From: Branchiostoma lanceolatum
Lineage: Eukaryota; Chordata; Leptocardii; Amphioxiformes; Branchiostomatidae
Assembly: GCF_035083965.1 (NCBI RefSeq)
Contig: NC_089723.1
Span: 22,237,193-22,301,192 of the forward strand
DNA length: 64,000 nt
Direction: 5' to 3'
The notes beneath the pieces were generated by a model. That model had not been told where the DNA came from and made no database searches. It saw only the letters and a list, made by a program, of their open reading frames with translations. The translations under genes and the position numbers were made by a program. Shown here piece after piece: positions 1-52,711 of the stretch; position 1 is the first letter of the stretch; each line of letters starts with the position of its first letter.

Positions 1-620
1 GGATCCGAAGCAACTACCGACAAACAATCCGAAAATCTCTGCCATATTGACAAATATCTAGAAACGAAGGATCCGCGCAAATATCCTCAGGTATCCGACG
101 CGCATCACGGATCCAGACGTATACGGCGTCGGAATTGCCGGATCTGAGGTGTACCTGGTAATTGTCTGAATTTGCTCGGAAACGTTCCGTATCTGTACCC
201 GAAACGTATGAAGGATCCAGACGTATACGGCGCCGGAATTGTCTGATCTGAGGTGTATCGGATCCAATCGGAAACGTTCCTTATCTGCTATGATGCGCAA
301 TTCCGGATCTGCTGGATTCGTCAGGAAATGAGATCATGCCGTGCCGTGTGTATTTATTCGTCAGGATCCGAAGCAACTACCGACATACAAACAATCCGAA
401 CATTCCAAATATCAAAAAACGAGGGATCCGCGCAAATATCTTCGGGTATCCGAGGCGCATCACGAATCCAGAAGAATACGGCGTCGGAATTGATCGGATC
501 TGCGGGCACTTCAGTATCCGAGCAGTGAACTGGGATTTTTCCGGATTCGCTCGGAAACGCCATGAGGCCCGATTCCGGATACGTCGGATCCGTCAGGATA
601 CGTGGCCATTTCGTGCAGTG
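1..620. repeat. BamHI-site-rich satellite-like direct repeat
   Basis: Two diverged copies of a unit of about 360 bp follow each other: the block beginning GGATCCGAAGCAACTACCGA at 1 recurs at 364, and the block beginning GATCCGCGCAAATATC near 72 recurs near 426. Inside the first copy a 45-bp segment (GGATCCAGACGTATACGGCG) at 111 recurs at 214. Short reading frames here overlap in several phases and look like by-products of the repeat. No gene is supported. Confidence 0.7.
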
Positions 621-5315: not shown

Positions 5316-8300
5316 ATGGGTTGCAGCGCCTCTCATGGTCCCGGCCCACATCCGCACCTAACACCGCGGGCAAATGAGCAACCGGAAGCACCGATCAAGA
5401 ACGGCAAGGCGGACCACGATCCACACATGAACGTTCAAAAAGAACATCTAGACGATAAACCAAAACCTACGGCGGAAATTAGTCCTCGTGTGACATGTGT
5501 GAAGGTCCCCAAGGAGGATCTGAAGGCGGAAGTGACGTCATCAGAACATGACGTCATCCACGTACGGAACGATTTATCCACTGAAGCTGACCTTCCAGAT
5601 CTTACAGAAATCAAACGGCCAGGTAATCTATCTTTTTGCGGAACATACAATTAACATGAACAACAAACTTAATGAAATAGAATGTGCATTTGACTCTCAG
5701 ACGGACATGTATTAGTTCAAGAGGTAGTCATTAAGGTGATAATAATCAAGGGTTAATGACCAATCTCGAGGTGTATATGGTGTCATAAGGCTTAGTAATT
5801 TGCTATCAGCACTGAATAAAATCATCGAGTGAGTAACGGCGTCTATTTGTCACCGGGTCCCGGGTTGATTTTAATTGCGACTTTTCACAATTCTGGCGGC
5901 CCGGCCGTGGCCCCAAAGAGCACGTTAGCGGCAAAGTGTCCCACGGGGCCGCGAAGCTCGTTAACTACCCGGCTGGGTCCCTAGCCTTCTTCCACTTGTG
6001 ACCATAGCATAATTGTATATTTTGTCATTACACGTAGCCGACATCGCCTGCCTCCTGTCGAAAAACAACGCCAAGTGGCCCATACGCTGCTTCTGTAGCC
6101 TGGACTTTAACGTGAACGCCGGGTACGGAGGGTGTGCGTCACTCCTGCTGCTGTCCTGTAGCTACAACAAGGGAGACAACTCAACCACTGAAGTAGGTTT
6201 TATTCCTATCCTATTTGTCTTCTACTAGCAAGAATATTTTGACATGCTATCTACATATCCAATCACTGATAATCGTAATCCTTATCGTTTGTTAACCTCC
6301 CACAGGCCTTCGTACGGGGTTCCTATCGTAGAATTCGACAAAAGGGAATGATTGACCAGGAGAGAGATCATTGTTTTGCGTTAATAGATACATGTACAAT
6401 GTTAAAATGTGTTGATTTTTGCCCATTTCTGTCATTTGTGTAGATATTCCTTCTCCGTTCTGGATTCGACTGTAACCATGTCGAGGCGACATCTCTGGTT
6501 AAGAGCCATGGCGGCCATTTTGGAGCAGAAAACCGCATCAAGACAGACGAAGACGGCAGGTATGGATAAGTAAATGAAAATGACGTTTTAGTTTTATTTG
6601 TAAGGAAAATAAATATCAGGTCTGCAATAACATATTTTATCAAACATTTTCCAGCTGACCTGAATACGTGTAAACTACTAAAGATGAATTATGAACCTGT
6701 GACATTTAAGTGTAACTATGTCGCGACACCCTTCCACATCCGTTTTCACTATATATTGAATTCATTGAAGAAGAAAAGGTGATTAGCATAGCATGTTCCC
6801 GCATATTGAAGATTTGAAACTGTGTTCTATATTGCTTGGCAAAAACTTATATCTTATCTGGTATTCAAAAGGACAAGTACAATATTCTCATGTATCTGGC
6901 TTTTTCTATTCCAGACTACTGGTGGACTGCCTTTTCGGAATGAATTTTGCCTGTTTGCTCTCTAACGACTCCCGCTGGGGGCACGGCGGCGTCGGGGTGG
7001 TTATGGACGGCCCGGAGGAGGAAGGTGAGACTGCCAAACTCCGCCTCAACGTCAACGGCGGGAACGGAGGGGGCACGTCCATTCTCATGTGCAGTGGGGT
7101 GGTGCCCGGAGTCGATACTGCTAAGGTAAAGTTACCACTGTGACATGTATGTTTGTATATGTTTGTGAAGTCATAAGATAGGCGACCTTTTTCTAGCCCT
7201 TCGCTTCGAGGCATGGACACAAGAAAAGAAAGGTCTTTCACTCACTCACTCACTCACTCACTCATTCATTCATTCCTTCATGATAAAAAGATCAATGCGT
7301 GTATTATTCTTGTCAAGACATCTTCATTATTGTCTGTTATCACTTCATTGCATTATCTGTTCATCATCATCTATTTTTCTTGTACTCTTACCAAGGTGCA
7401 AGGTGCACGATAGAGATTCTTCTGTTGAAGTTGTCTTCTTTTGCGCTTCATCAAGCTAGGGTCAACACAATCTTTACATGTCTGCAATGCTCTAAAAGTT
7501 ACAATTTTTCGATGACCTGCCGGATACTAGAGGGGTACCTCTCAATGTTTCACGATTAGGTTACGGCGTCTTTCTCTCACTGGGCCCCGGGTTGATTCTA
7601 ACTGCGAGGTTAAAAATATCCAGGGGGCCAGCCCTAGAATAGTCCGGCAACACAGGATAATAAGTTTATTTTCGCATGTTCCCAGGTTGTATCCTGTATG
7701 TACGTGATTAGCTCGGGAGCAGGCGAGAACGCCTTTCGGATGAAGAAGCTTTTCAATCACGGTGAGGATCTGTGGAAGTTCTCGGTGGACGGTCAGGGAG
7801 TTCTACAGGCCGCGGGACCGATGAGCAGCCGGTACGCCCTCTTCCACAACCGAGACACGTTCGCGCCAACACCCGGTGGTCAGGACAGGGGGGCGAAGGT
7901 CCGCCACACTCAGGCTTACCGAGGAGATTCGCAGACCGTCCTGCTGCCGGAGTGCCGGGAATGTGGAATGGCGGTGGTTCTCTGCTCCAGCAGCAGCGGG
8001 CCTGAAACAGCCACCACTGCCTCCCTCTACGTGCTAACCATCGTAACACAGGGAGATCAGTCAGTGGAGGCAACGTTTGCAGCAGGCAGCTCGGGAAAAG
8101 GAGCACCTGAGTCGGCGGATCAGTGGAAATTTGTGATAGCCAACGGGAAACTTGTCGTGGAGGGCCCCCCTCTACCCTGTAGGTACGCCATATTGTCTAA
8201 CTTCACTGAAGACAAACCTGATGACCCCAAAGGTCGTTGCCACCAAGATGGTTGCCTAGCAACGAATGAGAGCAGTCCTGTCCGCGGAGTGGTGTCAGTA

Positions 8301-11300
8301 GACGGTAACGGGATCCGCGGATGGGTGACGGCTCCGTCTGATGTCGTCATGAAGGTGAACGAGAGGACGGTTGCCATGGTGAAGAACACGGACCTGGTGT
8401 CGGTTTCGGCGGGGAGAATGGCGTTCACAAGGCGGTGGGCAGAGGACGAGACCACCCCGGGACTACGTCTGGTCAGGGTGTTCGCTTCCAAAACTGATCA
8501 AGGTGGGTGTAATTCTATAGAAATGTCTGTTACAAATGTTAGCCCTAAGGTTATCATAAGGAACATGCGCAAGTATCGAAGAAAAGAATAACACAAGCGT
8601 TGGACCGCATATATTTCATTCATTTCATTTGACAATATGACAAGACTTTACGTTTCGGAACGTATTGTAAGCAGCGACACCTAGCATGCAGTGTGCAATA
8701 GTACTAAGAAGATGACAGACGGTCGCCGAAAACTCGGCTGTAATTGTATGTCTTTCTTGTGAATAAAGAACTTTGTTATCCAGCGATTCTCCAACCTGAT
8801 GAAATTATCCAAGTACAAACGTAACCAGTTTATGTATGCTCTTCTAGAACTGAATTTGAAGCGCTTTAGCATTTAGTTGGGAGAAATCTGAGACCATCTG
8901 TGGTTTTGTTTCAAGAAGAGGGAAGAGACTAGACATGATAGATGTAGATGAAATATAGCATAATCATTTTTCTAGTTATTTACCCTCACTAGGCTAGTGC
9001 ATTTAGCCTCTATTGGGAATGCCCGATTATGAGACTTTATAGAATATGGTACATAATTCGTACTTCTAGCCTCCGATTTTTACCCAGTTTGCAAACTCGA
9101 CCATATGTCAGCTCCGCCACCGTTGTCGATGAATATGAAATGAATGCTTTAAAAAAAAACTCTTCTGTAGATAACAAGAAGCTCCTGATTGAGCTTGAGG
9201 GCTCTCCGTTCCAACACGTGATCCAGCCGAAGGGTGTCCTGTTCGCTCTGAACACCGCCGGGCCGTCCTACCAGGCGCTGAACAACATCGTGTACCTGAG
9301 CGAACATCGTCTGTACCACAACTACGAGACAGGTGAGGCATGGTATCTTTATCGACTTAATTAGATGCAAATGATAATAGTTTATTTGCAAATACAAAAC
9401 CAAAGGCTAATCTCAAATACATGTACATTATACATGTAGTATGTAATAATAATAACAGTGTACAGCGTAAACAATGAGTACAGTGATATTAACATATGGT
9501 ACTTATGTTAAGGTACCAATTAAATACTAAGATCTAAAGCTACTTTTGTTTTGGTTGAATTCTTCGTAAAAGAAAGTATTACACGAGCACTCTTCGGTTG
9601 AATTGTTTAACGATCTACGTAAGACATTTAGTGTTAAAAGCTTGTATATCTTAAACGCTTCCAGGGCCGAAGTCTAAAACTCTAGGACTCGTCAAAACTA
9701 CCAGCGCCATGCCTCAACTGCTGTGTGGGACCTACGATGGTTTCATCTATGGGACTGCCAGGAACCACACCGCACAGACAGAGGACGAAAACAGGGTCAC
9801 GTACAACGTAAGTGGATTAGCTGTTCAATACACCCTACTGACAGTTTTGCAACCCTCAAATTATAGCCGTCACTTACTTCCGGTTACACATAACCGAATA
9901 TGGTTCCTGACCACTAGTCAATTAAGGTTGGTGGTAGGTCGGGGCAGTCTTAACAGTTTAAGATTAACTTAAGATTCATATTTGACTACCAAACACACCC
10001 TGGTCACCACTTACTTACTCCCAACCACCAGCCAACCTATTCCAGGCCTACACCGTCGTCCACAGCCGAATGTTTTGAATCAATGGCGCCCGAAACACCA
10101 GCCGACTTAGCTCCCGAACCACTCCCGACCATGGTTTGGGGAAAGTCGGGAGGTCATGTTTGGCTATGTGTAACCGGAGCTTTCTGTTGCATTTCTTATA
10201 TCAAAGTTTACTGAACACCCACTGTTTTTTTTTCTTTTGTCCGGTCTCATAAAGCCTCTCCCAGATGCTTCATTACTGGTAGATTGAAAACCACTAAACA
10301 TGAACACCCATTGTTTACCCCTTTAGGTCCCAAACTTGCCAAATGGAAACCACACCCTAACCCTTCACTATGTGGGAGGAGGAGGACATATCATCATCAA
10401 CGGACAGGTATGTGATTGTTTGTTGTTTATTTGTTTGGTTGTATGTATGTTTTACATGAAAGACCACTTATGCTACATGCTTACACAGTGTAATATTCAA
10501 TATATTAAGTCACGTTTGGTTCATTATTCAATCTCGACAAAACTATGGTGAAGTTATCTGGTTCCCTGTACCGTACTTTCTTGGATGGATAACCGATGGG
10601 CGGACGACCGATTATAGCTATGTTATTAATCGACGAATTGCAATTCATCACAGCATTCATTCATCAGACCTTATTAGCTTAATGAAGATCCGTATGTAGC
10701 ACAATCTAGCTGTACTCTTTACTCTCCAATGTATACCTACAGTTCCAGTGCATGCACACAGCATTATGGATACGAGGACATTTTTTTTTCTGTTGCCTAA
10801 AACTGCTACACACCCCCACCCCTCCGATATCTGCAGAAAAGAGTAAATTTCAAACCTGCGAAGACGGAGGTCTCTCCAGGCTACACGGCGCACACGTTCT
10901 CCACGCCCGTGACCGTGTCTGGCGGTTCTCTGGAGTTCACGGCGTACCCCTCCTACCTGTGCGGCTTCTCCATCTGTGACGCCTCATACGTCGAACCAAA
11001 ACAGTCGTCCGATGATGTCAAGAGAGAACAGCAAGAGAGAGTGAAGGTGGGGGTGCAAATTAGTCGGTTCCTTTTTTCCCTGGAGTTGAGGGGGGGGGGT
11101 ACTAGTATCTAGTTTTAAGCATAATAATTATGACTTTGCAAATAGTCTCCCGACACACATGTGGTACCGGCACATACAAATATACGAACTTGTCTGTCAT
11201 TTCAACGTGACACTAAATTTCCTGTCTCTTGAGTAGTTGCCAATCACCTGCCACATTTTCGAACCGTGGAATATTGCACGTTCCGGCGCAGGCGCACTGA

Positions 11301-14300
11301 AGCGCCGAGCACTGGCGGCGACAGAGCAAACTGCACCGGTAAATGGATTAGGTCTCAACGATTGCCACAGACAAGATTTTCCATGTGTTGAAGAAAATTC
11401 ACCGCGAAAGACTAGACTTTCCATTTTGTATGGTTTTCTGTAAAATAAAAATCGCCCTTCAGAAAATATTACGTCAAAATCACTAGCAATGATGAACTAG
11501 TAAGTTGGTCAACTCATGCATGAATCGCAATGGTTAGATCTTCATGCTGCTATCTGAAAGAGTTGATGTTCGTTGAAATAATTTGTTTTCACTCACCTGT
11601 CCACAGTTGGGTCTGGAGGCCACGCCCCTGCCGGACAGTCTGGAGAAGAAGAAGATGCAGATCGCTGGCTGGTCGGCAAATCTCCTGGAGAACGCCAGCG
11701 GAGAGGTACGTCAGGGGAATTATCTAAGTCCCGGTAACCGTCAAGGTCGGCTGGTGTTCGGCCAGGATGGCTTGTGTAACTTCTATCTCCCACCTTACAA
11801 AAATACAAGGCAATCAAATGGATCTAAATTGTACAGCATTAACAACTAACTATCAAAGAACAATAAAATGTCTTTTGACAAGAGGTTAACGGAAATGGGA
11901 GCTATAGAATACACAGTTATGACCAACGTGAATTATATTATTTGCATGATTATTCATGACATGATATCTTTACGATATATATCCCACCATCCTTTTTATC
12001 TACAGTTGGGGAACATGTCTCACTGGAATATCGGTGGCGATTGGAAGATCAGAGAAGGAGGATACGGAACCGAAAAATGTTCGCTATCAATATTTGTTTA
12101 TTTAGGTTTACCACACAACGTAATATACGTTATGTTATTGTATATATTTGCATGGTAGTTACTAAGTAAAATGATTTTATACTGTATTTATGCATTGTAT
12201 TGTATCGCATTAACTATGTATGTATTATGATAGTGTAATGATCTTACTGTATGTTCGTCTGTATTTGTGGGTCAGCCGTTACCAGCGAAAGCTGCCTAGG
12301 CTGACCCAGTGTAATGACCTGTCTTTCATTGTCAATAAATACAATACAAATACAAACAGGTGCATGTGTACCTTTACAAGTTGTCCTCCCGCACACTTAA
12401 AACAACATCAACAGTACAATACTTTGCAAAATCAACTATATCTACAAATATAGAAAGCAGGTCATAAAGGAATCATCACTCGGATATTGATATACAATGA
12501 AATGCTATATCTGTATATTGGACGAATAGCTCTTTCGTTAAATCGTGGTATGTGCTGTAGGTTTCGTGACGTCACACATGCGCTGTACAAAGTACCAGGA
12601 GGTGGATCTGACTAAGACGTTTTCTGAGGAACATCTGGACTCGTCCCCTGAAATCCAGGTAGGTTCTCACGATAGGAACGTATCAATACGACTACAGATT
12701 CCTAGTGACAGAATATTTCGTCAGTAGACTTGATTAGCATGGTCATTATAATGTATCGGAAGTTGAAACGCACACAGAACAAGGCAAGCATGATGGATAT
12801 ATAAGTTCAATGGTTTCTATGCAAAGTCAAAGCCCGTCAAATATTTGCATTTTTATGTTTTGACGCGGTGGGTTCGACCATGGAATCGGTCTATTTACCG
12901 GTCTTTGACTTGTATTCAACCTGTATCTATCTTTCTTACCACATTGCCACGCAGCCACTCTCTCATTGGTCGAATGGATAATTGTCATGCTGTCATTGGT
13001 TGACCTGGTAATTGTGATGGACAGTCAGGATCAGTCTATTACATACCGGAAATTTCAAGATTATCACCGCGTCTTTTCACCTTCCCTGCAGGTGTCGGAG
13101 TGGTACACACAGGGTGTCTGTGGTGGAGGGTTCTACACACTGGAGGTGACCCTGATGACGTATGACGGCGACGTCATCAAAAGGTAAGGAAAGGCCAATG
13201 ACCCACCCACGAAGCTGCTCTATACCATAAACTGTATATAGCTGATGTCAACAGCAACTCATTAGCTGTAAAGACCTCCCTCTCTGGATAACTAGTGCAC
13301 CAAACTTTCTCACGAACAGAAAGCCGCTTTTCTCTCAAAATCGCAGAACCCACAAATTCAAGAAACAATGTGTCTTTTCGTCTTCCTCTGCTTCCAAATA
13401 TGAAGGCAAACGCAACTTGTCTAGATATAGCCAACACTGGTATTTGAGTAGTCTGTTGTTACAACAATGTCAATCACATCCTAGTACCAGGTACTTGCAC
13501 TTCCTCTCGGGCATGAACTTGCAAATAAACTTTTTGATAATAAACGCTGGCGTGAATGACTCAATGCAGTGATATTTGGCACCGAGGGGCTCATGCATTA
13601 TCCATCGTTGTCTTTCAGGTATAAGAGCGGGGAGAGAGGAAACCTGTATTCAGGACAGTGGCATGAGGAAAAAGTCACATTTACCGACTACGGCGCAGGA
13701 GTAAGACTTGTTGGCATTCAATCATCAGGTACGGTAGACATGGCCCATGTGGGAACTTAACGTCAACTGTTGAGGGATATGATGTCTTTCGCAGTCGTGT
13801 AACACCAACTCAGTTGTTTATATGTACCCTCAAAAAATCAATAATTATAGCCAATATCTTTTCACTCATGTTCATCAGGTAAGGATGACAAGCACTGGGG
13901 CGGTCATTACGGTGCCCGGATGTCCAACGCCTTCGTCAGGGTGAGGAGAGAGGCGAACGCAGCGGAAGATGACAAATTTGCTGACGTAATTTCCGAGAAC
14001 GTGACGGAAGAAGAGAGGAACCAGCAGGCAGCCTTGAGGGAGAAGGTCGTTCAGAAGGTGCTGACGGAAAATGCCGAACTTTGGTCACAGGACAGCAACG
14101 AAGGTAATGTTCACTTATTACGAACAAAACGTTTTAGAAATGTATGTAGACTACATCAAAATTGATTTCTAATGACGCCAAACTTGACTAAACACTCAGC
14201 GTAATGGTTGAGAAATATAGATTATGAGCCTGGCATGGCGTTGGCCTTTTAAAGTGTAAAAGTGATATATCTGAGTGGAAAATAAATAGTCATGTCGAAA

Positions 14301-17300
14301 AGTGCTATACAATGTTGCCTTTACAGTAGCTTTGTTTTACTTTGTCATTTTTGCTGGTATAACGAAATGCACATAATTATGTTATGCATTTCGTTCATTC
14401 GTCGATTAACTACCAATAAAGAATTGATGCTTATGTTTGAATTCTCATCATTTAATGCAATAATTCTAAAGCCCAACCTATGGAGGATCCCCTCCTGTCA
14501 ATGCAGCAAGGTGGTAAACAAAAAGGTAACAGTTAAAAACTGTCCATTGGTGGAAGTGGTGGTGGTTGAGCATGTATTTGCACGTCGCGGATATAACACA
14601 TTACACACCATGCATGGTTTTACTGAGAAACCACTGGCACGTATGATAGCCATATAGCAGATATTATTGTAGAAGAGTCCATAAGAGGGTAACATACTAT
14701 ATTGACCTGGTGCATGGAGGTGCATAGAGTGGTGGAGTTTCATTCAGTTATTCGAATTCTGCCTAGGCGTCAAAATCTTGGTGACAGTCCATGATAGTTG
14801 TCGCATGCTAACATTCTTATAGCATGCCCTTTGCCTTTTGCAGTTCCTTAGCGGTCTTTCTCCTTGCAATTGGTGTCAATGGCATACACAAGGTGTGATA
14901 TATCATGATAGCACTTCAAATGCAGACCTTTACAGTTTGAATATCCCAAATCTTCCACACCTTCACACACTCATTTCTCATTCACAGACAGTGCTGAGCA
15001 TGATCAAGAGGTAAACACGACGATCTCTAAGCAACGTCGATCGGAGAAGCCAAAGCAGAGAGAGATTAGGGTCTTCGTTTCCAGCACCTTCAAGTGAGTT
15101 ACCAAACTAGTAAGACGCTAAAAGCTTGTTCAATGGAATTGAGAAACTGTACTTGTACACCCTACAGTTCGGAACAAATCATGGCTATCATATCATCAGG
15201 CAAAAGTAGTACAACTTTGGCAATTGTTTATCTATTATCATGATACGAGCTATGAAACATAGTTTGCTACCATTAGCGCATCATTTGATATCCAGGCCTC
15301 ACATCTTGGTCTCTAATCAAAATCAACAACCTTGTTAATGCTATGGTCACATTTGCACTGGTGCCCGCAGGGGGTGTAGCCTGGGCCCGATGGACTGCCG
15401 GATATGGAAGGGGTAGGGGGGGGGGGTGTGGTCACCTTTCGGTGTTTTCACGATTAGCTTACGGCGACCATTTGTCGCCAGGTCCCGGGTTGACTCTAAC
15501 TGCGAGTTGAAATATCCAGGGGCCCGGCCGAGCCCCAAAATATCCAGCTAGCTATCCACAGGGTGTCCCACGGGGTCAAGTAGGGGTCATGCCCGAAGGC
15601 AAAATAAAGATAGCCCTTAAACTTCCCGGCGGGGCCGTTATTTTCAATTGTAACCGTAGCATGAGACGTAGTGATAAGATACTGTATTGTTTTTATGCCA
15701 ACAGAGACTTTAAAGGGGAGAGAGAATACCTCATCAAGAAGACATTCCGTGAACTGAATCGTCTGTGCGCCGAACGTTCCGTCTTCTTCACCTACGTCGA
15801 TCTGCGCTGGGGCATCACGAAGGAACAGTCTGATGACGGACGGACCATCTCCATCTGTCTCAAGGAGGTGAGAAACAAATTTAAATATCGTGATTTTGCT
15901 ATACACGAACTACTTGCTATCAATAATTGAGACTTCAACAACGGTAGCTATATAGGGATGAAAAATCTTATCAGCAATGTTTTTGGCTAGCTAGTATATG
16001 CCTTGTAAAAGAAAGATCGTGAAATAAGCCTATACTACTTAGAAGTGTTCCATGGCAAGTTTATCTTAAAAGAAAAGTTTGCGCTGGGAACGGTTTGAAC
16101 TTGAAAACGCCATACGCAATCACTCAGCTTTGTATTGTGGTAATTTTGTTGTACTTCTGATGCTTAGACACACATGGGCTATTATGCTGTTAGAATCTTT
16201 ATAGATTGTTAACCAAAAGTTATGTTTAAGATGGACATGTCGATAACAGTTCTTTGTTCCCTTTACAGGTGGACCGTTGCCGCCCGTACTTTATCTGTAT
16301 GATGGGAGAGAGGTTCGGGTGGAGTCAAAAAGAGGGCGAACCAGACAAACTGCTGAACGCCAGTTTTGACTACGCCATTAAACACAACGAGGACCTGAAG
16401 TGGATTGAAGATCACCGATTTGACACAAGTGTCACACAGGTAAGACAGGTCGAAACTTACCGATCTTTACACTTTCCAAGTTACTGTAGATGGATCTATT
16501 TTAATTTCTTAAATCTTCGCTCTTAATTAAGTTATGACTATCATAATACATGTACTAAGTATGCATTGTTACCTTCGCCAAGAAGGTAAACATGCTTTTC
16601 GAGTACGTGTGTCTGTCTGTCTGTCTGTTTGTTTGTTTGTTTGTTTGTTTGTAGACAGCATAACTTGAGAAGTCGTGTAAAGATCTCTATAATATCAAAT
16701 ATATTGGTAGGTGTTGACATTATGAGAAAAAAAGACTATGGGCGGCTTTGGGTGACCTAGCGGCTTTCTATGGTTCTGCAGCAGAACCTTCAGTTCATAT
16801 GTCGTATGACGGACAAGCTATGGTCACAATTTTTGGTTGTTAGATAGATATTGTGGTCGGAAAGAAGTGAGATAAGTTTGGGCCCTCTAGTTACATATGC
16901 TGTGATCTATTAGAAGTGTAACCTTTTCGTTCTCATGTCTTTACTGAATTTCGTTGCCGTTTTACTTTTATAATTAGCTGGAGGTCCAACACGCGGCGCT
17001 CAACAATCCTGACGGGGGTCGCCACCGCTGCTTCTTTTACCTGCGAGACCCCGTGAACACGGACACGGGCACAGTTAGCCCTGACGATGTACAGGTTTGT
17101 CACATCTCGATTTGTAACAAAATTAAGTTGACTCAATCAGATACCATAAATGTCAAATAACATGTTAGAGAAACCATCACTTTTTCTTATCAAGAAATTG
17201 ATTTGAGAGAATTTTTTAACTGTACATTTCTAGGGTATCACTAAAGATACTACACCAACAAAACACAACCGAGAATGAAAAATTAATTCAAATCGTTGTG

Positions 17301-20300
17301 TGAATGATTATCATATTACATAAAGACTGGAGTGTTACGCTATGGTCACAATTGGAAAAAAGGAGCCGGCCGACTAGTTTACTTTTTTTTACTTTTGGCC
17401 GTGGCCTCTACGTGGCCCCTGCGGTTGCCCGGCCGGGCCCGGCCTTTTTTACTCGCAGTTAAAATCAGTCCGGGACCTGGTGACAGATGAACAGGTTTCC
17501 GGTGCACATGTATCACTACACAGGGAATTCAGACGCAGCTTAACATTTTCCTCACCCTCTGTAGGTATTTCTGTCCGAGAGCGACTGGCACTATGAACAC
17601 CAGTACAAACTGCGGAAGGCTGTTCTAGATGCAGGAATGAACGTCAGGAACTACAAGGAAACAGAGGACGCATGTACTCTTATCATGGAGGTGACGGTCT
17701 ACTCTTTTACACGCTCTCATTTTTCACTTTGTAGCGAAATATTTCAAATGACCCCTTTCCAAAGTCGGGCGCCATTTTGAATCTGCTCTAACGAGAGCAC
17801 AATCTGGTGTGGGCGCGCGTGATTTGGCACGGCGAGCGGTAAGAGATCTTGGAGCTCAGTTCTTAACAGTTGCGTCACTAACAGAAAGCAGCGTCGAGTC
17901 ATCTTCAGTGAGGGAGGAAGATACCATTTTTTTTGTTTTCCATTTTGTAGGACCTCCAAAGATGTGTGGATGAAGATTTCCCGCCGGGCACAGAGATGAC
18001 CCCCATGCAGCGGGAACAGGAGCACCACATGGCGTTTGCCGACGCGCGCAGGCGCGTGTACATCGGCAGACAGGAGTACTTCGACAAGATCGACGACTTC
18101 ATGGCCAAAAATAAATCAACTCCTCTGGTGAGTTTGTTTGCTTGTTTTTCTAATTTTTGTTTCTTTGTATTGTATACCCGACATACCACCTCATCACGTT
18201 TTTTTCTACAAGCTGCATATCAGGACAAATTTACTAGTATTTGATCCACCCAGACCGGGAAGGAAACCTACGCAAAGAAACAAAGTACCTATAGTAAACG
18301 AAATCACAGTCGGCTAATACTTGCTGAGGTACTAAGGTAAAAGGATATGTAATACATTAAACTATGAATATTTCTAAATGAGTCGTAAACAACGAAATGA
18401 TTGGCAGTTGCTTGTACGAGGGTGAGTCAATAAGTATTGCAATTTGTTTTATAACAAGCTCCCTTTCTTCATCAGATGAGTTGAAATTTGGCACAAAGGT
18501 AAAGTCATATATCTTCTCGAGGCTGAAATATCTCAGTACATGTATGTTATCATATCAAGATGCATGCCTTTGCCTTTGTGTCAAATTTCAACTTGCTTGA
18601 TAAAAAAATGAGCTCGTCATGAAACAAATTGCACCACAAATGGCACCTCTCACCCTGGCCTCGTACTACTGATGAAGCAATACAGACACATGTCCTATCC
18701 TGAAACAGGTCCTAGTCGGTGAGTCCGGATCAGGCAAGTCCGCCCTGGTGGCCAACTGGGTCTCCAAGCACGAGCAGGCTCACCCTGATCACTTCGTCTT
18801 CGTCCACTTCATCGGCAGCTCTGCGGAGAGCTCGAACCACGTCACCTTAGTCAGAAGGTACTTCAGATGCTTTCATGACTTTTGAAGAATGAAATATGTT
18901 GGTGTAACGTTACATGTACGATTTGCGGGAATAAGTGAGCTCTGCACTGCGCAAAGTATGGTTTCATCAACATAGTATAATCAAACAACGTGTCAAAATT
19001 TACACATAAGTAAAAAATATTCTTAACGTGTCACAAAAGGAAGACGGAAAAGTGGGAGAGAAAAATAGCAGAGACAGTAAATGTTAATCATCACAACCAC
19101 AGCTAATACTACTAATTACTTCGTCAGAAGGTTATGTTTTTCGGTTGTGCTCTGGTGGAGTGGCTGTGGTCGCATGTGTGTTTGTATGTTAACAGCGTGA
19201 CTCGAGAAGCTGTGCACGTGGATGGATCTTCATGATATTTGGTGGGTGGTAGGGTTGGTATCGGGAAAACGAAGGTCAAATTTGAGGATGGATTTCTGGC
19301 GGCTTCCTACGGTACTGCAGCGAGCGGTGTATTTTTAGGGTGTTTGTATGTTATCAGCATAATTCGAGAGCCTGTGGATGGATCTGATATTTAGGAGGTA
19401 GATAAAGGTCGGAAAATCGAAGGCTAAGTTCTATAATGGGCCTCCTAGCTGCTACTGCAGCGGAATTTCAGAGTCTGAGGTCTAATTGTCCGGAAATAAT
19501 ACTAGTATGGTTATCTTTTAGGCTGATGGAGGAGCTAAAAGCCTTCTTTAACCTGACCATGGCGGTGCCGACGTCGGACACCAATCTGGTCAGATCCCTG
19601 CCGGTGTGGTTACGGATGGCCGGGATGATGGGCCGGGTACTGATAGTCATGGACGCCCTGAACCAGCTGGACAGCGGGACGGCGCTGGTCGGAGAAGGTA
19701 AAGACCGTCCCAGGATATCACAGTACTGAGAATATGAGATCCCGTTCGCTGAAGCCCCGTCTACACATAGCCAATTATGGCCTACCGACCTTCGCCCAAC
19801 TATGGTTGGGAGTGGTTCGGGAGCTAGGTCGGTGGTGGTCGACGCGCATGGCTGGTGTTAGGCTGCGCCAACCGAAAGTTATGAAATTTCCAAGGTCTGG
19901 AATGGGTTGGCTGGTAGTTGGCTGGTGGTTATAATTAGGATTAAGTCAGTAGTGGTTAGTGTGTGTTTGTGAGTCTATGTGTGACTGGGGCTTAACAAAA
20001 GACTCTGAGTTATCATTATGAAATCTATCTTCTGACTTGCAGGTGATGAGCACGACTTGCTGTGGATTCCAAATGAAATGCCACCTGGTGTTAGCGTGCT
20101 GCTCTCCACCTTACCTGGCAGGGTGAGTGCAGATGCCTTTACTTTCTGTTCGTTTTTATGTCGTTGTATATCGACCCATGCGTGTGTCATGCTACCTTTT
20201 TATATGCTGAGCACATGACATGAAAAAACCTTCGGATCCGGAAACGTTATGCTTCCTTTTCTTATGCTGAGCACTTGGCATAAAAAAAAAATCACGAATC

Positions 20301-23300
20301 CGGATAAGCTTTGAGTGATGAAAATGTATCTTTTCATCGGTCATCAGGCGATGGAGGCTGCCTCGGCCAACGGATGGGAGGCTTTCCGTGTACAGCCTCT
20401 TCAACCCGAGGAGAAGTCTGCGATCATCAAGGGGTACCTGGAGGACATATACACCAAAACTCTGTCTGAAGAGCAGAAACAGCTGATCATTGATGCTCCG
20501 CAGACAAACAACCCGCTGTACCTGAAGGCGTTATTAGATGAGGTAACTTTGTCGGCGTATTCGTAAGTTCTAGTCGTTACAGGCATATCCTACTCAAGTT
20601 GTCATCACTTAGATGTAGGTTCGATATACAAAATATACAATACAAAAGTAACTCAAGCATCTGGATAGATTTGAACGGTTTGACCGTTCACAAAATCTAT
20701 CTGGTTGCTTGGGTGGCCTTTGTAGCCTTGTATCCAACCTGCTATTAATAGCTTCAGAGTTATCCTTTCCGGAAAGGAGTCTCCGGAGCTATAATAGGTA
20801 CCAGGGTTGGATACCAGGCTATAACTTTTGTACTGTGCAACTTCTCATCATTTTGATATTTCATATCAAACCCAGTGTGTCTCCATGATACATTCCTTTG
20901 CTCCATAACGTTTGAAATCATGAATACAAAGCTCGTTTTATGTTGTAGATGCGCCTGTATGGTGAGTTTGAGACGGTGACCACCCGCATACAGCATTATC
21001 TTGAGGCGGAAAATCCAGGCGTCCTCTTCGGCAAGATCTTGGAACGTCTTGAGAATGACTTTGAGACAGGAGTCAACACCAGGTAATAAAAAAAAAGATA
21101 TGGGCCATTTAATTCATAAGATGGCGCTCCTGGGCAGAACCTTCATTAGCCTTATTGTTACACATAAACCAATTTGCTCTTGCGTCATAAGTTCAAAACA
21201 AATCTAAACATCACGACGTGTACATCTACTCCACAGAAAAGACCTTGTCCGCCTCTCCACGTCAGCCATCTGGTGTTCTCATCGTGGGTTATCAGAGGAA
21301 GAACTGGTCACCCTTCTAGACGTATGTATTACCTTCGCTTGTCTACCTATAGTGTAGTGAATAAGTAGTTAATGATGAATACCACAGCATGACCAGGAAA
21401 AAAAAGAAGATACAAAAGCCGCAGGTTCTGCAGCAGTACCAATGACATACACCAGGGGGCCAAAAATCAACTCTGTCCTTCGTCTTCCAAGAACCTACCC
21501 ACAGCCCAAAATATCATTACAATCCATCCAGAGGTTGATGATTTTTGAGGAAACACCCGAAGATAGACATACAGACACACAGCTAGGTCATAAACTATAC
21601 CTCCATTTTCATAGAGGTACAAAGATACTTTTTTAATAGGGTAGTCTTCAACAAATGCAACTCTTTTCTATGTGGAAAATTTTCTGAATAGCAAATGAGT
21701 CTACATTTGAGATGTTGTATCGATAATGCTTGCCTTTTATAGAATCAATATGTTATCTATTCACAACAGGTACCATCCGTTGTCTGGTCACCCTTCTACC
21801 TCTCCTTGGATGACAACTTGATCAATCGAAACGGGATCCTGAACTTCTTCCACGACCATCTCCGCCAGGCAGTGGAGGCCCGGTACCTGCCGACTGCTGA
21901 CGACAAGCGGCTGAAGTACCTGGAACTGGCGGATTACTTCGCGACGAGAGAGATCGACGACAGAGTTGTAAGATAAATATTGTAATATTGATATCAATGA
22001 TTGACTCTTAATTGGAAAATGATTATTTATAATGAAAACTGTTCTCCAACGAAAAAAAGGACTTTTCAACTGAATCGATCAGTCCTCATTAGGCATCTGA
22101 TCCAATCGCTCTGGACAAGTGACTTTAAGCACGTCTGACGTCAGCAACGGGTGAAAGGTTGTTGGAAGTCGATATCGCCCTCATCTCCTTTCCGAATGTT
22201 TATTGGTTGCTACTTTGATCGGTCGATTGGCTGATTGCTGCTCATTATGTTTATGTAGGGGTCAAAGGTTGTTGGAAGTCGATATCACATCCCGTCCCGC
22301 TTGTTTATTGACTGCTTGTTGGGCCATCGACTGACTGATTGATTGATTGATTGATTGATTGATTGCCAATGCTTTGTATTATTGTTTGTGTAGGTGGACG
22401 AGCTGCCTTTTCTTCTCTCCAAGGCTGGTGAGATGGAGCGTCTCCGAACAACCATCACGAACCTGCAAATCTTTCAGAGGATGATGAAGTCTGTAGAGGG
22501 AACCTTCAACCTCATGAAGTGCTGGCAACAGGTATATATTAAATAGACTCATTTTTTTCATTTCTCAAAAATCAATAAATTAAATGCTGCCTGTGTGTGT
22601 CTTTGAAACGATATCATTTCATCTCAGCATATGAAATACTATGCGTGTAGGCAAGGATATGCTTTTTTCCATATTCATTTTCATCGGCAAGGATAGATGT
22701 GCACGTTTAGTTGCAATACTAGGGTCATAATCCTCGAATACTTCCTGTAGGTGGGAGGTTACGAGCAAGCGGAAGTAGATTATCTGAAGGCCTTGGCAGG
22801 GGAACCTCATGGATCGTCCGAACAAGATAAAGAGGACAGAGTCGCGCTTCTTCGCAGCATGGCAGCATTCTTCGTCAAAGCAGGACTGCTAAAAAGTGCA
22901 AGGTAAGTTTCCTGTCTATCAGCCTTTGTAAATATAAAATCCAAATCCGGTATTCGACTTTACTACAGCCGCGCAATCGGCGCACGCGAAGCTTCGCGTT
23001 TAAACCATTCGATGGAAGCCCATGCAATACGACTTCGAATCCCGGGGAATACGATAGAATATTGACCGGTCCGGAACAACCGTATCAAACGTTATCGCAG
23101 CTCAGGAGTGACAAAAAGCAGTTATAACGCGACATGTACACAGTCACCCGGTTACACAAATTGACAAAATATGCTCTAAGTCTTACGACGTGCCCGACGA
23201 CGTTGAATGTGAGTTTACATAATAAATACACAAATAAAGCATCACTGCGAACAAATTCCGTCACAATGATCTGATCCCCTGTGCTAATAGAAGCGTTCTT

Positions 23301-26087
23301 TGAATTTCAGGTCTTTGTACGAAGAGTTGCTTAAGATGCTTGAAAGTCGCTATCTGGACACACATGGCGCGGTGGTGTACCACCCAAGGAACTTCTCCTT
23401 CCACCACAAATGCAAGCACACTGATGTTCTGGATGTGAGTGTCCAACGTTAAATTATAAGTAGACAGTGGGCCTAGCGGTACTTAGCTTTGACTTTTGTT
23501 ACTATCTCTGTCACACAGCAAGAAAATTAATCGGCTGACGAGTCTGCGAGCTCTAAAATTTTAGCCAGTAATATGCCCGATGTTCTCTCAATCATCGCAC
23601 AACTTTAGAGATTGGTAAAATATGATGGGGGTAGATTTCCAGGGAGAGATACGCTTGATTCTCTGGCGATCAACAGATACTGTCGAAACTCGTCAACTGT
23701 TACATTTATTTACATCCTTTGGACAGGTTCTTCACAGTCTCGGAAACGTGTGTGAGCGGCAAATGGAGCTGAAACGTGCGGAAGAGTTCTACACAGATGC
23801 CCTGGACCGCCAGACCAGACTCGACACCCCTAAAGAGAAGCTCTATCTAGTCAAGGGGCTTCTCGGTCTAGCGTGAGTTTCACAAAGCTTGATACAATAT
23901 TCTTTCTATTAATATTGATATGTAACCTGTGCTTCAGAGCATTCGTTGCCCATTGAATCTTAAATATGTGGCAAACGCAAAATTACTGCGCAAATGAAAT
24001 CAAGGTCTGGAATTTTTGCGATATTTCAACCTAAGGAATACAATATGTCCCAATATAGGAATGACCTGTAGATCACTGGCTTACATCAGTTGTACGATTG
24101 GATGAGAACAGATTTTCGGTAAAGAGGAAATATATATACATGTCTTATAGATCTGTGAAAAGTCTCAAGGAAGACCAGAAGGAAGCCAAGAAGCTGCTGC
24201 TTCGTGCCAAGGAGGTGGCGACTAGCGTGTTGGGTCCTCATCATCATTATGTAGCATCCATAGTGGGACAGGTGAGACTGCACTTTGTTAGAAAAAAATG
24301 TATTCCCAGGGCCGTAAAGGTAAAGTTCGGCCCATTACCCTTTTGGGGCTGTAGGGGCAGTAGATTGTTATCCACTGTGTCTAGAGCACGGTATTGGAAG
24401 GCGGACCCCTTCCCTCTCCTCCCACCGCCTTTCACCACCCTAAGTCAGATTCCCATTTTTACACCCCTGGGTGGAGTGAGAAAAGTCATGTAAAGTGCGT
24501 TTTCCAAGGACACAGCTGTGACTCCTCAGTCTTGTGTCCACTAGTCTAGCCACTCGGTTATTTGACGCCATGAAGGTGCGTGTACCATCAGGAAAGGGCC
24601 CATCCAAAGGCACATAGGACCATTCACTGTAGTCATGTCCCCTTAAGGCATCAGTTACCAAGAGTAAGATCGTATAATCCATCAAACGCATCTCATTGTA
24701 AACATTTCACTAGCTAATGGAGCAGGAGGGTCAATACCCAGCGCTGCAAAATCTCGTCTCATCTATTTATAGTCTGGCTATTTGACAGTTTGGGCACCAC
24801 AGAAAATCGGGCAACCAGTTTTCTTTATCCATGTTTCAACAGTAACTGTTGAACAGTGTCATGCCAGTCCATTCTATATCAGCTACAAAATTGGTGACTT
24901 CAATGTATACCGATGACGACTTGTAACATTTACCTCTCTTGCTATTTCACAGATTGGTCAAGTCTGCTACAAACAAGGCCGTGTGGACGAAGCCCTGGGT
25001 TTCTACCTACAGGAGCTGAGTAAGGTCCGGGCCATCCACGGCGCCAGTCACCCGCGCACGGCCGGCGTGCTGAACAGCATCGCGCTGGTGTACGACGACA
25101 AGAACGACGAGCGGGCCGGGGAGATATACGAGACCGCGCTGGCCACCATGGTACAGGCGTACGGAAACAACCATGTAGATGTCGCCATCATCAGGTATGG
25201 ACACAACTATTTTTGTTTGTATATAACGCATGCCCTGTAAAACCGCCTCATGGCGCAACGCGACACCAGGTTTGTACTGAACAGAACAAGCTGCATAATT
25301 AAGACAGCTTTATTTGATCCGCTCACAATATATATAGGAACCCTAGTCTTTTCGATAAGTGCCTTGGCTTCTTTTATCTGCTAAAGGTATGGCTCGCCTC
25401 AAACATGGGACCTCCATTTAACGTCCTATTAGAGGGAAGTCCCTAACCGAAGCTAGGTATTTATTTTCACCTGAGTGAAGGGATGAAATGTGACTTTCCT
25501 AATGGCACAACTTCAAACACCCTGCAACTACGCCAGGCCTTTGTTTGCGAGTTTTGATTGACTTTTACTGGTGGTTGGTGAATAAGGCATGAATGTTTGC
25601 AAATGAACCAGTCGCTAAAATGTTGGATTGTAAATAACCTTTGAGATCCTTAATCATTTTACAGTAGATTATGGCTGATTCACAGAATCTTGTAGCTCCA
25701 CCTCTGTATCCACTGACAGGCAGTCTGGTTGGCCTCTCGTAGATCATCGTCAGTGTATGTTGTGCCAAATTTGCAGTTCTATTGGCGGTGTTGATAGATG
25801 ATAGAGTTATACTGACTACTTGTCTGACGTTAGAATTAGCCTTGGCCAACTTTGTAGAGGTGGAGTGTATTAACTGTTTTGGAAGACAATTAAATTAACT
25901 TTAAAACTTTTTCTCCAACAGATACAACCTGGGTGCATTTTACTTTGCCACTAGCCACTACGCCAGGTCAAAGTACCAGTTTGAGCAGGCCACATCAGTG
26001 TTTGAGTCTTTCCTCGGCCCTGACCATCCTGACACAGCAGAGGCCAAGGAGGCCATGGACACGGCAGCTGCATTTGTGAAGGAATAA
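5316..26087 (+). CDS. beta-repeat/FBA/DUF4062/NACHT/TPR protein (nephrocystin-3/TTC41-like C-terminal half)
   Basis: Predicted 1988-residue intracellular protein assembled from 36 exons; 35 of 35 introns start GT, end AG and preserve phase. The order is MGC start (possible myristoylation and palmitoylation), four beta-rich repeats (103-535), unassigned region (536-734), F-box-associated domain (about 769-950), DUF4062 (about 1024-1160), NACHT NTPase with Walker A GESGSGKS (1291-1298) and Walker B VLIVMDAL (1376-1383), then helical and TPR repeats (about 1627-1985). DUF4062-NACHT-TPR is the arrangement of nephrocystin-3, TTC41 and TEP1-type proteins, which use the NTPase as a switch and TPRs for partners. 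FBA domains bind glycoprotein N-glycans in FBXO2/FBXO6. The joint role is inferred, not shown. The start ATG at 5316 has an in-frame TAG at 5301. An AATAAA lies at 26695. Exon coordinates are given in the segment entries. Confidence 0.85.
5802..6008 (+). mobile_element. MITE-like family B, copy 1 (intron 1)
   Basis: Contains the family core TCCCGGGTTGATTTTAATTG near 5860, and ends near 6008 with TGTGACCATAGC. That sequence is the reverse complement of the GCTATGGTCACA end seen in copies 3 and 4. The right end lies only about 30 bp before exon 2, so the acceptor region borders the element. Confidence 0.55.
6296..6372 (+). repeat. dispersed repeat family A, copy 3 (intron 2)
   Basis: Partial copy with CACAGGCCTTCGTACGGGG and TCGTAGAATTCGAC, matching the front half of the copies at 1990 and 2953. 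Confidence 0.5.
7239..7276 (+). repeat. (TCAC)n/(TCAT)n microsatellite
   Basis: Perfect TCAC tetranucleotide run passing into TCAT units, in intron 4 of the first gene. Confidence 0.9.
7516..7645 (+). mobile_element. MITE-like family B, copy 2 (intron 4)
   Basis: CTGCCGGATACTAGAGGGG, TTTCACGATTAGGTTACGGC and CCGGGTTGATTCTAACTGCG occur in the same order as in copy 3. The outer end is not recognisable. It lies about 40 bp before exon 5. Confidence 0.55.
8503..8767 (+). promoter_or_regulatory. possible intronic stop and poly(A) signal (short isoform)
   Basis: If the exon 5 donor at 8503 is not used, the frame stays open to a TAA at 8589-8591. An AATAAA follows at 8762-8767. This would give a protein of about 564 residues with only the leader and four beta repeats. 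The AATAAA lies in a repeat that recurs near 39590, so the signal is probably transposon-derived. Use is unproven. Confidence 0.35.
8690..8815 (+). repeat. dispersed repeat family C, copy 1
   Basis: GATGACAGACGGTC, GAATAAAGAACTTTGTT and CAACCTGATGAAAT occur in this order. Related pieces lie at 39410-39650 in the RPRD2 gene: GTGACAGACGGTCACTGAAA on the minus strand, then GAATAAA and CAACCTGATGAAAT on the plus strand. Confidence 0.5.
9171..11046 (+). other. exons 6-9: unassigned, probably beta-sandwich region
   Basis: Exons: 9171-9332, 9665-9807, 10327-10407, 10837-11046 (residues about 536-734). The translation alternates hydrophobic and polar residues, with Gly/Asn-rich turns such as YVGGGGHIIINGQ. 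That suggests a beta-sandwich or carbohydrate-binding-like fold, but no family motif is certain. It ends with a charged linker (DDVKREQQERVK). Confidence 0.75.
9879..10179 (-). mobile_element. MITE-like family D, copy 1 (intron 7)
   Basis: About 300 bp bounded by inverted ends: CCGGTTACACATAACCGAA on the left, and TTTGGCTATGTGTAACCGG on the right. The interior, read on the minus strand, matches the element at 19752-19993, including GGAGTGGTTCGGGAGCTA and GGTTGGCTGGTGGTTGG. Confidence 0.65.
12110..12360 (+). mobile_element. LINE-like 3' end with AATAC tail (intron 12)
   Basis: AT-rich sequence ends in a hairpin (GGGTCAGCCGTTACC paired loosely with GCCTAGGCTGACCC), then GTCAATAAATACAATACAAA. 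A hairpin followed by AATAC-type repeats resembles the 3' end of CR1/L2-like non-LTR elements. No coding part remains. Confidence 0.5.
13495..13555 (+). mobile_element. LINE family L1x 3' tip (intron 14)
   Basis: TCGGGCATGAACTTGCAAAT followed by AAAC and TAATAAAC matches the 3' end of the LINE fragment at 36590-36620 (TTCGGGCATGAACTTGCAAT). It is a severely 5'-truncated copy. Confidence 0.55.
15341..15661 (+). mobile_element. MITE-like family B, copy 3, complete (intron 17)
   Basis: Starts GCTATGGTCACATTTG and ends CAATTGTAACCGTAGC, which form imperfect inverted ends. The interior carries ACGATTAGCTTACGGC and GGTCCCGGGTTGACTCTAAC, like the other copies. It ends about 40 bp before exon 18. 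Confidence 0.65.
16565..16830 (+). repeat. dispersed repeat family E, copy 1, with microsatellite
   Basis: Begins with a small hairpin, TTACCTTCGCCAAGAAGGTAA in outline. A GTCT/GTTT tetranucleotide run follows at 16609-16650, then CAGCATAACTTGAGAAG and GGTTCTGCAGCAGAACC. Copies of the same motif order lie at 19128-19480 (+), 21415-21560 (-), 47700-48105 (-) and 48905-49030 (-). Confidence 0.6.
17339..17520 (-). mobile_element. MITE-like family B, copy 4, inverted (intron 20)
   Basis: GCTATGGTCACAATTGG begins the element. Near 17455-17490 lies the reverse complement of the family core (CTCGCAGTTAAAATCAGTCC). The far end is degenerate, near TATCACTACA. It lies about 45 bp before exon 21. Confidence 0.55.
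18414..18665. mobile_element. mariner-like MITE (intron 22)
   Basis: A 252-bp foldback flanked by TA. The left end, TACGAGGGTGAGTCAATAAG, is typical of mariner-type terminal repeats. The right end, read in reverse, starts TACGAGGCCAGGGTGAG and then follows the left arm for about 100 bp, including GCAATTTGTTT and GTTGAAATTTG. No transposase sequence remains. Confidence 0.75.
19128..19480 (+). repeat. dispersed repeat family E, copies 2 and 3 in tandem (intron 23)
   Basis: AGAAGGTTATGTTTTTCGG opens the element. Two successive units follow, each with ATGTTANCAGC, CTCGAGAAGC-like and GGATGGATCT motifs and ending at a CTACTGCAGC or TACTGCAGC block. The second ends about 40 bp before exon 24. Confidence 0.6.
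19752..19993 (+). mobile_element. MITE-like family D, copy 2 (intron 24)
   Basis: A 242-bp element. The left end AAGCCCCGTCTACACATAG and the right end CTATGTGTGACTGGGGCTT are 19-bp inverted repeats with two mismatches. The interior matches the minus strand of 9879-10179. It lies about 50 bp before exon 25. Confidence 0.75.
20643..20725. mobile_element. short hairpin element, family G, copy 1
   Basis: AGTAACTCAAGCATCTGGAT faces ATCTGGTTGCTTGGGTGGCC, and the centre GAACGGTTTGACCGTTC is itself palindromic. Related ends occur at 62838-63025. A separate perfect palindrome, CCTTTCCGGAAAGG, lies just downstream near 20765. Confidence 0.55.
21415..21560 (-). repeat. dispersed repeat family E, copy 4, reverse (intron 28)
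   Basis: GGTTCTGCAGCAGTACC, CAACTCTGTCCTTCGTCTTC and CCCAAAATATCATTACAATC are reverse counterparts of family E motifs in the plus-strand copies. Confidence 0.5.
22330..22364 (+). repeat. (ATTG)n microsatellite
   Basis: Tetranucleotide run of GATT units, about nine copies, in intron 29 just before exon 30. Confidence 0.9.
24450..24600 (-). mobile_element. SINE family S2 fragment, reverse (intron 34)
   Basis: GGGTGGAGTGAGAAAAGTCA, AAAGTGCGTTTTCCAAGG and GACGCCATGAAGG match the minus-oriented copies at 3660 and 55905. The B-box part is degraded. Confidence 0.5.
25380..25520 (-). mobile_element. SINE family S2 tail fragment, reverse (intron 35)
   Basis: GGTATGGCTCGCCTCAAACA and CCATTTAACGTCCTA are the reverse complement of the tail of the plus-strand copy near 46365-46410. 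Confidence 0.5.
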
Positions 26088-33071: not shown

Positions 33072-33536
33072 TGTACAGATGTAGGAGACATAGCACGGAA
33101 TTCAGCACTGCCAGATTCAGCAGTCAGAAATGGATATTTCTTGCAAAAGCTTGTAAATAGATAGTGTGATTGTGTCTTATTATATAAATCTAATAGAATG
33201 TTTGATCAAATTTATATTATTTATAATTTTGCGAGATATCAAAATAATAGTGTTAATTTCTGTCCCTATTAGCTGAATGGACTAGCCCACAGGGATCAGT
33301 CATGCGCAGACCCAACATTGCTGTAAAATGGAGGTGCCTGTTTCTTTGAGGAGGCGTTCCTTCAAAAAACACCCCATTTTCCCTCGTTTGCAAACGTTTC
33401 CGTGGATGTAGCCAACTTCTTTCTAATCTTAAGGACGAGTACGTAACTTTTAGCCGGGTAAATACAGCTTGACCGCTGCGATTGTTGAAATTGGACGTGT
33501 ATTTTCGCGGAAGGTGAGGCGAGAGACGTTTCCAAG
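33072..33536. promoter_or_regulatory. bidirectional promoter interval, XPA / RPRD2-like
   Basis: The XPA start codon (33071, minus) and the RPRD2-like start codon (33537, plus) face away from each other with 465 bp between. Both 5' UTRs and promoters must lie here unless upstream UTR exons exist. No TATA box is placed convincingly for either gene; the plus-side 80 bp is GC-rich. Confidence 0.6.
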
Positions 33537-52000: not shown

Positions 52001-52711
52001 CTGCAGCGCTTATGCATGGCTGTTGCCATCCTGCTCCACTACTGCCTCCTCGTAACATTCCTGTCGATGTCCTCGCTTGCCTTTGATCTCTTCAGGAAGC
52101 TTTGCTGTAACCAGTTCAGCAGCTACGGCGTTCCGTACCGCCGCTATGCCGTGTTCAGCTTTGGCCTTCCGCTGATCCTGGTCAGCGTGTGTGCTTTCCT
52201 TGACTTTTCTCCATGGACAGAAGCGGTCCGTGTGTTGTACGGTGGTGAGCACTGCTGGATGGATAACCCTTGGGCTAGTCTGCTAGCATTCGGCGTGGTG
52301 GTAGGGTTTGTCGTTCTTTCCAATTCTTATTTCCTGGTGTGGATAGTCATGTCATTGTACCGCTCGGCCCGTGAGACGTCCGCCGCTCGCACGGGCTCGG
52401 AGTTTGCCCTGATGCGGGTTTGCCTCCGTATCACCACCATGATGGGGTTAACCTGGGCGTTGGGCTTGGTGGCGCCGTTCGTTGACAACACTGCCATTTG
52501 GTTTGTTTTCACGGGATTGAATAGCGTCCAGGGGTTGTTCATCGTCATCGCTCTTACTGTGAAGAACTGCAAAACGTGTGGTTCGAAAGCGGCGCTGTCG
52601 GAAACTGGGAAGGGAAGCATGCAGGGTTCGAGTGAGAAAGGCAGGCTCTACCACGTCGCTGTCCGCCAGGAAGGTTGTCCTAACATCGGCGACAACATAA
52701 CTAAGTTGTAG
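47359..52711 (+). CDS. seven-transmembrane receptor with two somatomedin B domains
   Basis: Predicted 880 residues from three exons: 47359-47665, 49961-50209, 50625-52711 (phase 1 at both introns). It starts with a signal peptide (MKVIQSIVYCLVGVCCFSV), then a low-complexity acidic segment. Somatomedin B domain 1 has eight Cys (139, 143, 154, 156, 160, 166, 167, 174); domain 2 also has eight (196, 200, 211, 213, 217, 223, 224, 231). A Cys- and N-glycosylation-rich ectodomain follows. A seven-helix region at about 580-832 resembles the secretin/adhesion/Methuselah class B family (MMGLTWALGLVAPF near helix 6, FTGLNSVQGLFIVIAL in helix 7). No GPS cleavage motif is visible. The tail ends ITKL, a class-I PDZ-like end. 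An alternative first exon may exist at 46046-46106. AATAAA lies at 53358. The ligand is unknown. Confidence 0.83.
47700..48105 (-). repeat. dispersed repeat family E, copies 5 and 6 in tandem, reverse
   Basis: GCTGCAGTACCGTAGGAAGC at 47753 recurs as GCTGCAGTACCGTAGGTAGC at 47895. Each is followed by CTTACCCACTTACCAAATATC-like or CTACCCACCTACTGAATATC-like text and GTTATGCTG. The element ends ACCTTCTCGCGAAGGTAAAG, the hairpin end of the family. It lies in receptor intron 1. Confidence 0.6.
48905..49100 (-). repeat. family E copy 7 joined to an (AC)n microsatellite
   Basis: GGTCCACTGCAGTGCCCTAG, CTAACCACCTACCAAATACC and CTTCTTGAGTTGATGG match the reverse family E copies. The dinucleotide run of AC follows directly at 49028-49095, in the position where the copy at 16565 has its tetranucleotide run. 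Confidence 0.6.
49466..49636. mobile_element. MITE-like foldback, GC-rich ends (receptor intron 1)
   Basis: A 171-bp element with inverted ends of about 33 bp. The left begins AGGGCCACATTTTCGAACCG; the right ends CGGTTCAAAATGCGGCCCT. Both arms carry a GGCCGGGC-type block on the inside. Confidence 0.7.

Follow-up and report, generated by a model that had tools for sequence, protein, structure and literature searches.

A 64,000-nucleotide stretch of the genome of the amphioxus Branchiostoma lanceolatum (NCBI RefSeq assembly GCF_035083965.1, contig NC_089723.1, positions 22,237,193 to 22,301,192 of the forward strand; hereafter the window) carries a gene whose product runs from an N-terminal MGC-S motif through beta-rich repeats, a malectin-like domain and an FBA domain into DUF4062, a NACHT NTPase and NPHP3-like TPRs. 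FBA, DUF4062 and NACHT are all matched by their Pfam models within one spliced frame (Table 1), and the same domain order recurs in other phyla, so that it cannot be due to chance. We suggest, as a reading that is plausible if still short of probable, that the protein is a membrane-tethered member of the STAND proteins which combines a lectin-type recognition module with an NAD-cleaving (NADase) effector and detects cytosolic N-glycans.

Gene structure and domain order

The gene model was built by hand from open reading frames and splice sites, and was corrected through alignment to the closest database proteins, P0001 to P0003. All splice borders are GT/AG, and all exon phases agree. P0001, a B. 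lanceolatum database protein labelled 'TEP1', matches the model in length, with 32 residue differences between the two; 23 of these lie within residues 106-648 and only four beyond residue 1000, a distribution suggesting that the N-terminal beta region is the variable part of the protein, while the switch part hardly varies. The Pfam scores of FBA, DUF4062 and NACHT were obtained with a partial version of the model, in which one stretch of nine residues was wrong and one exon of 18 residues was absent.

The initial annotation had placed the fusion at 11237-21967. This span does hold the core domains, but the gene begins upstream of it and ends downstream; moreover, the segment 11237-11606 is non-coding in our model and has no counterpart in P0001 to P0003. 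The TPRs that it had reported are real, but nearly all of the TPR region lies past position 21967. Its description of an FBXO2-type FBA domain that continues in phase into DUF4062, an intact NACHT domain and TPRs agrees with our model, as does its statement that no F-box is present: the 21 Pfam matches that P0001 gave include neither an F-box nor TROVE nor WD40 (E up to 0.1, the threshold used for all Pfam searches reported below). Both the Walker A and the Walker B motif of the NACHT domain are present, and the Walker A Lys and Ser are kept in all 46 aligned rows. A fold search with a model of a relative matched its switch chassis, that is, the NTPase and the helical fold, to Apaf-1. PADLOC gave only weak TPR and mads_8 matches on P0001 and none on the DUF4062 piece, Rfam gave no match, and a viral fold search gave no interpretable one.

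An old family of bilaterian proteins

With residues 750-1130 as the query, a homology search yielded 399 proteins, and the family counts given here are drawn from the 120 that were listed. Among these, at least 52 proteins (P0001 to P0052) contain the Pfam FBA domain according to precomputed assignments, 41 of them together with DUF4062, NACHT and a TPR model, the combination for which the initial annotation had proposed a search without TPR. The other 11 are without one or more of these three domains, several of them being short or partial; three short bivalve forms (P0047, P0051, P0052) end just past the first DUF4062 exons and are taken as putative partial or intron-retaining annotations. 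The named sources include amphioxus, acorn worms, sea stars, urchins, brittle stars, crinoids, many bivalves, two cephalopods and one nemertean, and no vertebrate is named among these matches. In 25 chosen near-full relatives, which include two paralogues with a decayed FBA domain, Pfam matched FBA in 24, and both DUF4062 and NACHT in all 25.

A tree of the DUF4062-NACHT region, whose members were chosen from the 70 best matches, comprised 42 family rows (the window being one) and 13 outside rows. It split the FBA family from other DUF4062 proteins (support 100/99). Several branches outside the family are very long, and their points of attachment are uncertain. Within the family, amphioxus and hemichordates (92/96), lophotrochozoans (93/89) and echinoderms (100/100) form clades, the first two of them below full support. 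The tree is largely species-like, as would be expected from vertical descent, and points to an old bilaterian family.

Most family members are labelled 'uncharacterized' in the databases, and several are named 'DDB_G0287407'. The initial annotation had regarded the domain order as undescribed. Within the titles and abstracts listed (subscription papers lay outside the coverage), we found no paper that describes an FBA-DUF4062-NACHT-TPR family, none in which an FBA term occurs together with either NACHT or DUF4062, and none under the name 'DDB_G0287407'; the order itself, however, is already present in databases.

The putative recognition and membrane-targeting regions

FBXO2 is the nearest solved structure to the FBA part (1.2e-21). 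In a comparison of 36 chosen proteins, 28 of the 29 non-amphioxus FBA rows show 47-64% identity to the window, the gapped P0048 being at 39%, and the FBA domain is conserved about as well as NACHT. Such slow change across phyla would suit a self ligand that stays constant, for example the core of N-glycans, better than a changing pathogen protein. The pocket residues of FBXO2 are Phe177, Tyr279 and Trp280; the Trp is kept in the window and in 49 of the 52 FBA rows, its loop is unusually conserved, and an aromatic residue or His occupies the other two positions in 48 and 42 rows, respectively. A search with the FBA domain by itself found nothing, not even the vertebrate FBXO proteins, and is hence unusable as a control.

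The malectin-like domain upstream of FBA was matched by Pfam in 10 of the 25 relatives. Its curated cut-off was exceeded by three relatives, which had been chosen because their records already list Malectin. A profile of four sequences of this region matched malectin structures (2jwp, 2.2e-5). P0001 gave no Pfam malectin match, and the domain in the window is therefore called through alignment to the relatives. Within the beta repeats further upstream, three weakly similar units can be discerned by eye; the structural model of these repeats in the relative P0052 is all-beta and mostly confident, while a three-row profile found no sequence match in the PDB. A homology search with the N-terminal region reached five family proteins among the 7989 word-richest candidates scored, a result that does not bound the spread of this region. 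Read-through of exon 5 (8503-8770) would add a short in-frame tail with a stop at 8589 and an AATAAA at 8762, and may yield a short isoform consisting of the N-terminal beta region alone.

A start of the type MGxxx[ST] occurs in 29 of the 52 family proteins and in 0 of 63 other listed DUF4062 proteins, the latter being largely prokaryotic and thus a weak control; some of the remaining 23 family members have cut or doubtful starts. No clear membrane span was found (the highest 19-residue hydrophobicity mean is 1.4). The closest working precedent for the location is FBXO27 (Fbs3), an FBA protein which is N-myristoylated, acts at endomembranes and marks ruptured lysosomes (PMC6389600).

DUF4062 as a likely NADase effector

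A bioRxiv preprint of May 2026 identifies DUF4062 as a TIR-like NADase (PMC13174449). The bacterial Swarozyc system is described there as stopping phage by depleting NAD in an abortive infection. Human TEP1 is described as cleaving NAD(P)+ through E1008, assisted by R908 and R976. The TIR-like domain of human TEP1 (11gz) is also the nearest solved structure to the DUF4062 domain of the amphioxus protein. When the TEP1 numbering was placed on the chain letters of this structure, R908, R954, R976 and E1008 all fell on the correct letters. The equivalents of E1008 and R976 are E1133 and R1089, both of which are invariant in an alignment of 46 rows; across all 52 FBA rows, the Glu position holds Glu in 47, a gap in four and Asn in one, and the R976 position Arg in 48, a gap in three and Lys in one. 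We therefore consider DUF4062 a likely NADase effector. The 'sensor chassis' into which the initial annotation had combined DUF4062, NACHT and TPRs is accordingly retained for the NACHT/TPR switch but not for DUF4062, and the domains and the motif upstream of FBA had been overlooked.

Five further proteins (P0053 to P0057, from four named urchins and one other source) form one clade inside the echinoderms and have a decayed FBA domain without the Trp motif. NACHT is kept in them, and all five retain the catalytic Glu and the equivalent of R976, a pattern indicating that the recognition part can be altered without loss of most effector-site residues.

Possible mode of action and alternative explanations

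In the mechanism that we envision, N-myristoylation/palmitoylation would anchor the protein to the cytosolic face of membranes, and the FBA domain would bind the inner core of N-glycans that become accessible in the cytosol when endomembranes are ruptured, when glycoproteins are misfolded or when glycosylated invaders enter. The TPR-NACHT chassis would be held closed by autoinhibition until engagement and would then undergo Apaf-1-like oligomerisation, gathering the TIR-like DUF4062 domains for the cleavage of NAD(P)+, with a local or whole-cell loss of NAD as the possible outcome; FBA may be either the trigger of these events or only their targeting part. The cytosolic glycan or damage sensor proposed in the initial annotation is, in our view, a fair hypothesis.

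A number of points, concerning recognition as well as the effector, weigh against this proposal. Positions 177 and 279 of the FBA pocket are both His in the window, and the loop with position 177 is conserved no better than average (entropy 1.38 versus an average of 1.32). FBXO44, with a Tyr/Tyr/Trp pocket, has an FBA domain without sugar binding (PMC4603797). The malectin contacts Glu87 and Tyr89 are apparently lost, as judged by eye rather than by a structure-based residue check, and we dropped the reading of the malectin-like domain as a diglucose-binding one; plant malectin-like receptors keep this fold with no detected sugar binding (PMC6038381). On the effector side, the TIR-like part is barely covered by the rows of the fold search. 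At the R908 position the window has Lys (the 52 rows have Arg in 34, Lys in 15 and Val in three), and all five proteins P0053 to P0057 have Leu or Thr. Since the Glu and Arg are also kept in all 63 other listed DUF4062 proteins, their presence reflects retention and not a special activity of the FBA family. In the usual NLRs, the sensor is not N-terminal to the effector, whereas here it would precede it. Finally, human NWD1, NWD2 and NPHP3, in which DUF4062 adjoins NACHT, showed no NADase activity in the same assay as TEP1 (PMC13174449).

The observations on FBXO44, on the malectin contacts and on the plant receptors would also fit an arrangement in which the same chassis and NADase are governed by an FBA domain that, together with the malectin-like part and the repeats, binds a conserved host or pathogen protein instead of a sugar. 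We regard this as rather unlikely, given the near-invariant pocket Trp and its unusually conserved loop.

An NPHP3-like scaffold or trafficking protein, with a catalytically silent DUF4062 and an FBA domain serving glycoprotein quality control or membrane targeting, appears improbable to us. It is in keeping with the inactivity of the three human proteins, with TPR_NPHP3 matches in all 25 relatives and with the myristoylation motif, which fits a targeting role equally; on the other hand, the catalytic Glu and Arg are kept nearly without exception, and the match of TPR_NPHP3 to P0001 (E 2e-20, 73.6 bits) lies under the curated cut-off of 100. The Met codons in exon 16, which make a second start possible, and the polyadenylation-like AATAAA behind exon 5, which follows an in-frame stop but lies upstream of FBA, might suggest that neighbouring FBA-type and NACHT-TPR genes were read as one. 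We consider this artefact extremely unlikely and have dropped it because the order is conserved in many species of several phyla, whose tree is largely species-like; the exon phases also all agree. Translation cannot begin at exon 17, which opens DUF4062, as its frame contains no Met between the preceding stop and the exon.

Comparison with known systems

Human TEP1 (TROVE-DUF4062-NACHT-WD40), a protein of the vault, is the best solved relative, and shares with the amphioxus protein the TIR-like DUF4062 adjoining NACHT and the catalytic Glu and Arg; in place of TROVE and WD40, the amphioxus protein has FBA, the malectin-like domain and TPRs. NPHP3 likewise has DUF4062 next to NACHT, TPRs and N-myristoylation, but is not known to contain an FBA domain, a malectin-like domain or the repeats, and NPHP3_N, like TPR_NPHP3, matches P0001 below its cut-off (18.7 versus 24.8 bits). 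The FBA fold is shared with FBXO2, FBXO6 and FBXO27 (Fbs1-3); unlike these, the amphioxus protein has no F-box, so that no SCF ligase is expected, and carries a DUF4062-STAND chassis instead. With malectin it shares the beta-sandwich fold and a weak sequence match, but its context is presumably cytosolic. It has the STAND switch in common with Apaf-1, to which an FBA-type recognition module is added here. The NAD-depleting DUF4062 effector of Swarozyc is alike, but the amphioxus protein is an animal one with FBA-type recognition. The bacterial Avs5 appeared at Foldseek rank 10 with a low TM-score.

Table 1. Features of the gene, given in window coordinates (position 1 is the first nucleotide of the window)
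Feature	Position	Strand	Remarks
Whole coding gene	5316-26087	+	36 exons, 1972 aa
MGCSAS start	5316-5333	+	probable N-myristoylation/palmitoylation motif (predicted)
Beta-rich repeats, fold unassigned	6055-8246	+	aa 109-450
Malectin-like domain	9197-11004	+	aa about 545-720
FBA domain	11679-13943	+	aa 759-913; starts inside exon 10 (11607-11705); Pfam 8.6e-27
Variable linker	13944-15058	+	contains small exon 14472-14525 (54 nt); 11-26% identity outside Branchiostoma
DUF4062 / TIR-like domain	15056-18019	+	Pfam 5e-14; TEP1 TIR structure 11gz 1.8e-15
DUF4062 residues	E1133 16981-16983; R1089 16311-16313; K1020 split over 15092-15705	+	
NACHT NTPase	18125-20443	+	Pfam 2.2e-12; Walker A GESGSGKS at 18718-18741
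Apaf-1-like helical part	20444-21943	+	
TPR region, NPHP3-like	21944-26084	+	TPR_12 1.6e-27 on P0001
Exons 1-9	5316-5622, 6038-6192, 6444-6559, 6915-7125, 7686-8502, 9171-9332, 9665-9807, 10327-10407, 10837-11046	+	
Exons 10-18	11607-11705, 12006-12078, 12561-12658, 13092-13183, 13619-13728, 13879-14103, 14472-14525, 14988-15093, 15705-15867	+	
Exons 19-27	16269-16439, 16978-17094, 17565-17690, 17951-18127, 18709-18857, 19522-19697, 20043-20122, 20348-20542, 20949-21082	+	
Exons 28-36	21237-21321, 21770-21967, 22394-22531, 22751-22902, 23311-23434, 23727-23872, 24151-24271, 24953-25194, 25922-26087	+	

Other features of the window

Imperfect direct repeats of 63-87 nt lie at the left end of the window (51-508). 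A CID-domain gene at 33489-43446, whose pieces are assumed to form one gene and whose CREPT-like match is under the cut-off, is presumably RPRD-like; an open frame at 35669-36493 resembles, by eye, the tail of a retroelement and has no Pfam match. An adhesion-type G-protein-coupled receptor at 49939-52708 combines somatomedin B domains with a seven-helix part of the secretin family. At 55481-62691, a Thr/Ser-rich gene with 33-nt repeats is present twice in tandem, the copies being spaced by about 4.5 kb; their blocks are mostly 74-87% alike, and the three pieces scanned gave no Pfam match.

Implications

Taken one step further, the family may represent an ancient bilaterian receptor of innate immunity or damage that answers self N-glycans leaking from broken endomembranes into the cytosol with the destruction of NAD+, uniting a lysosome-damage lectin of the FBXO27 type with a NADase of the TEP1/Swarozyc type on an Apaf-1-like wheel; we consider this extension doubtful. 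If the proposed mechanism holds, animals would have linked the detection of cytosolic glycans directly to the depletion of NAD, with no need for ubiquitin, caspases or a separate adaptor. In this protein, the newly found DUF4062 NADase adjoins a recognition module of a known type, and the question of what triggers the eukaryotic DUF4062 proteins, TEP1 and its kin among them, would thereby become directly testable in urchins, oysters and amphioxus.

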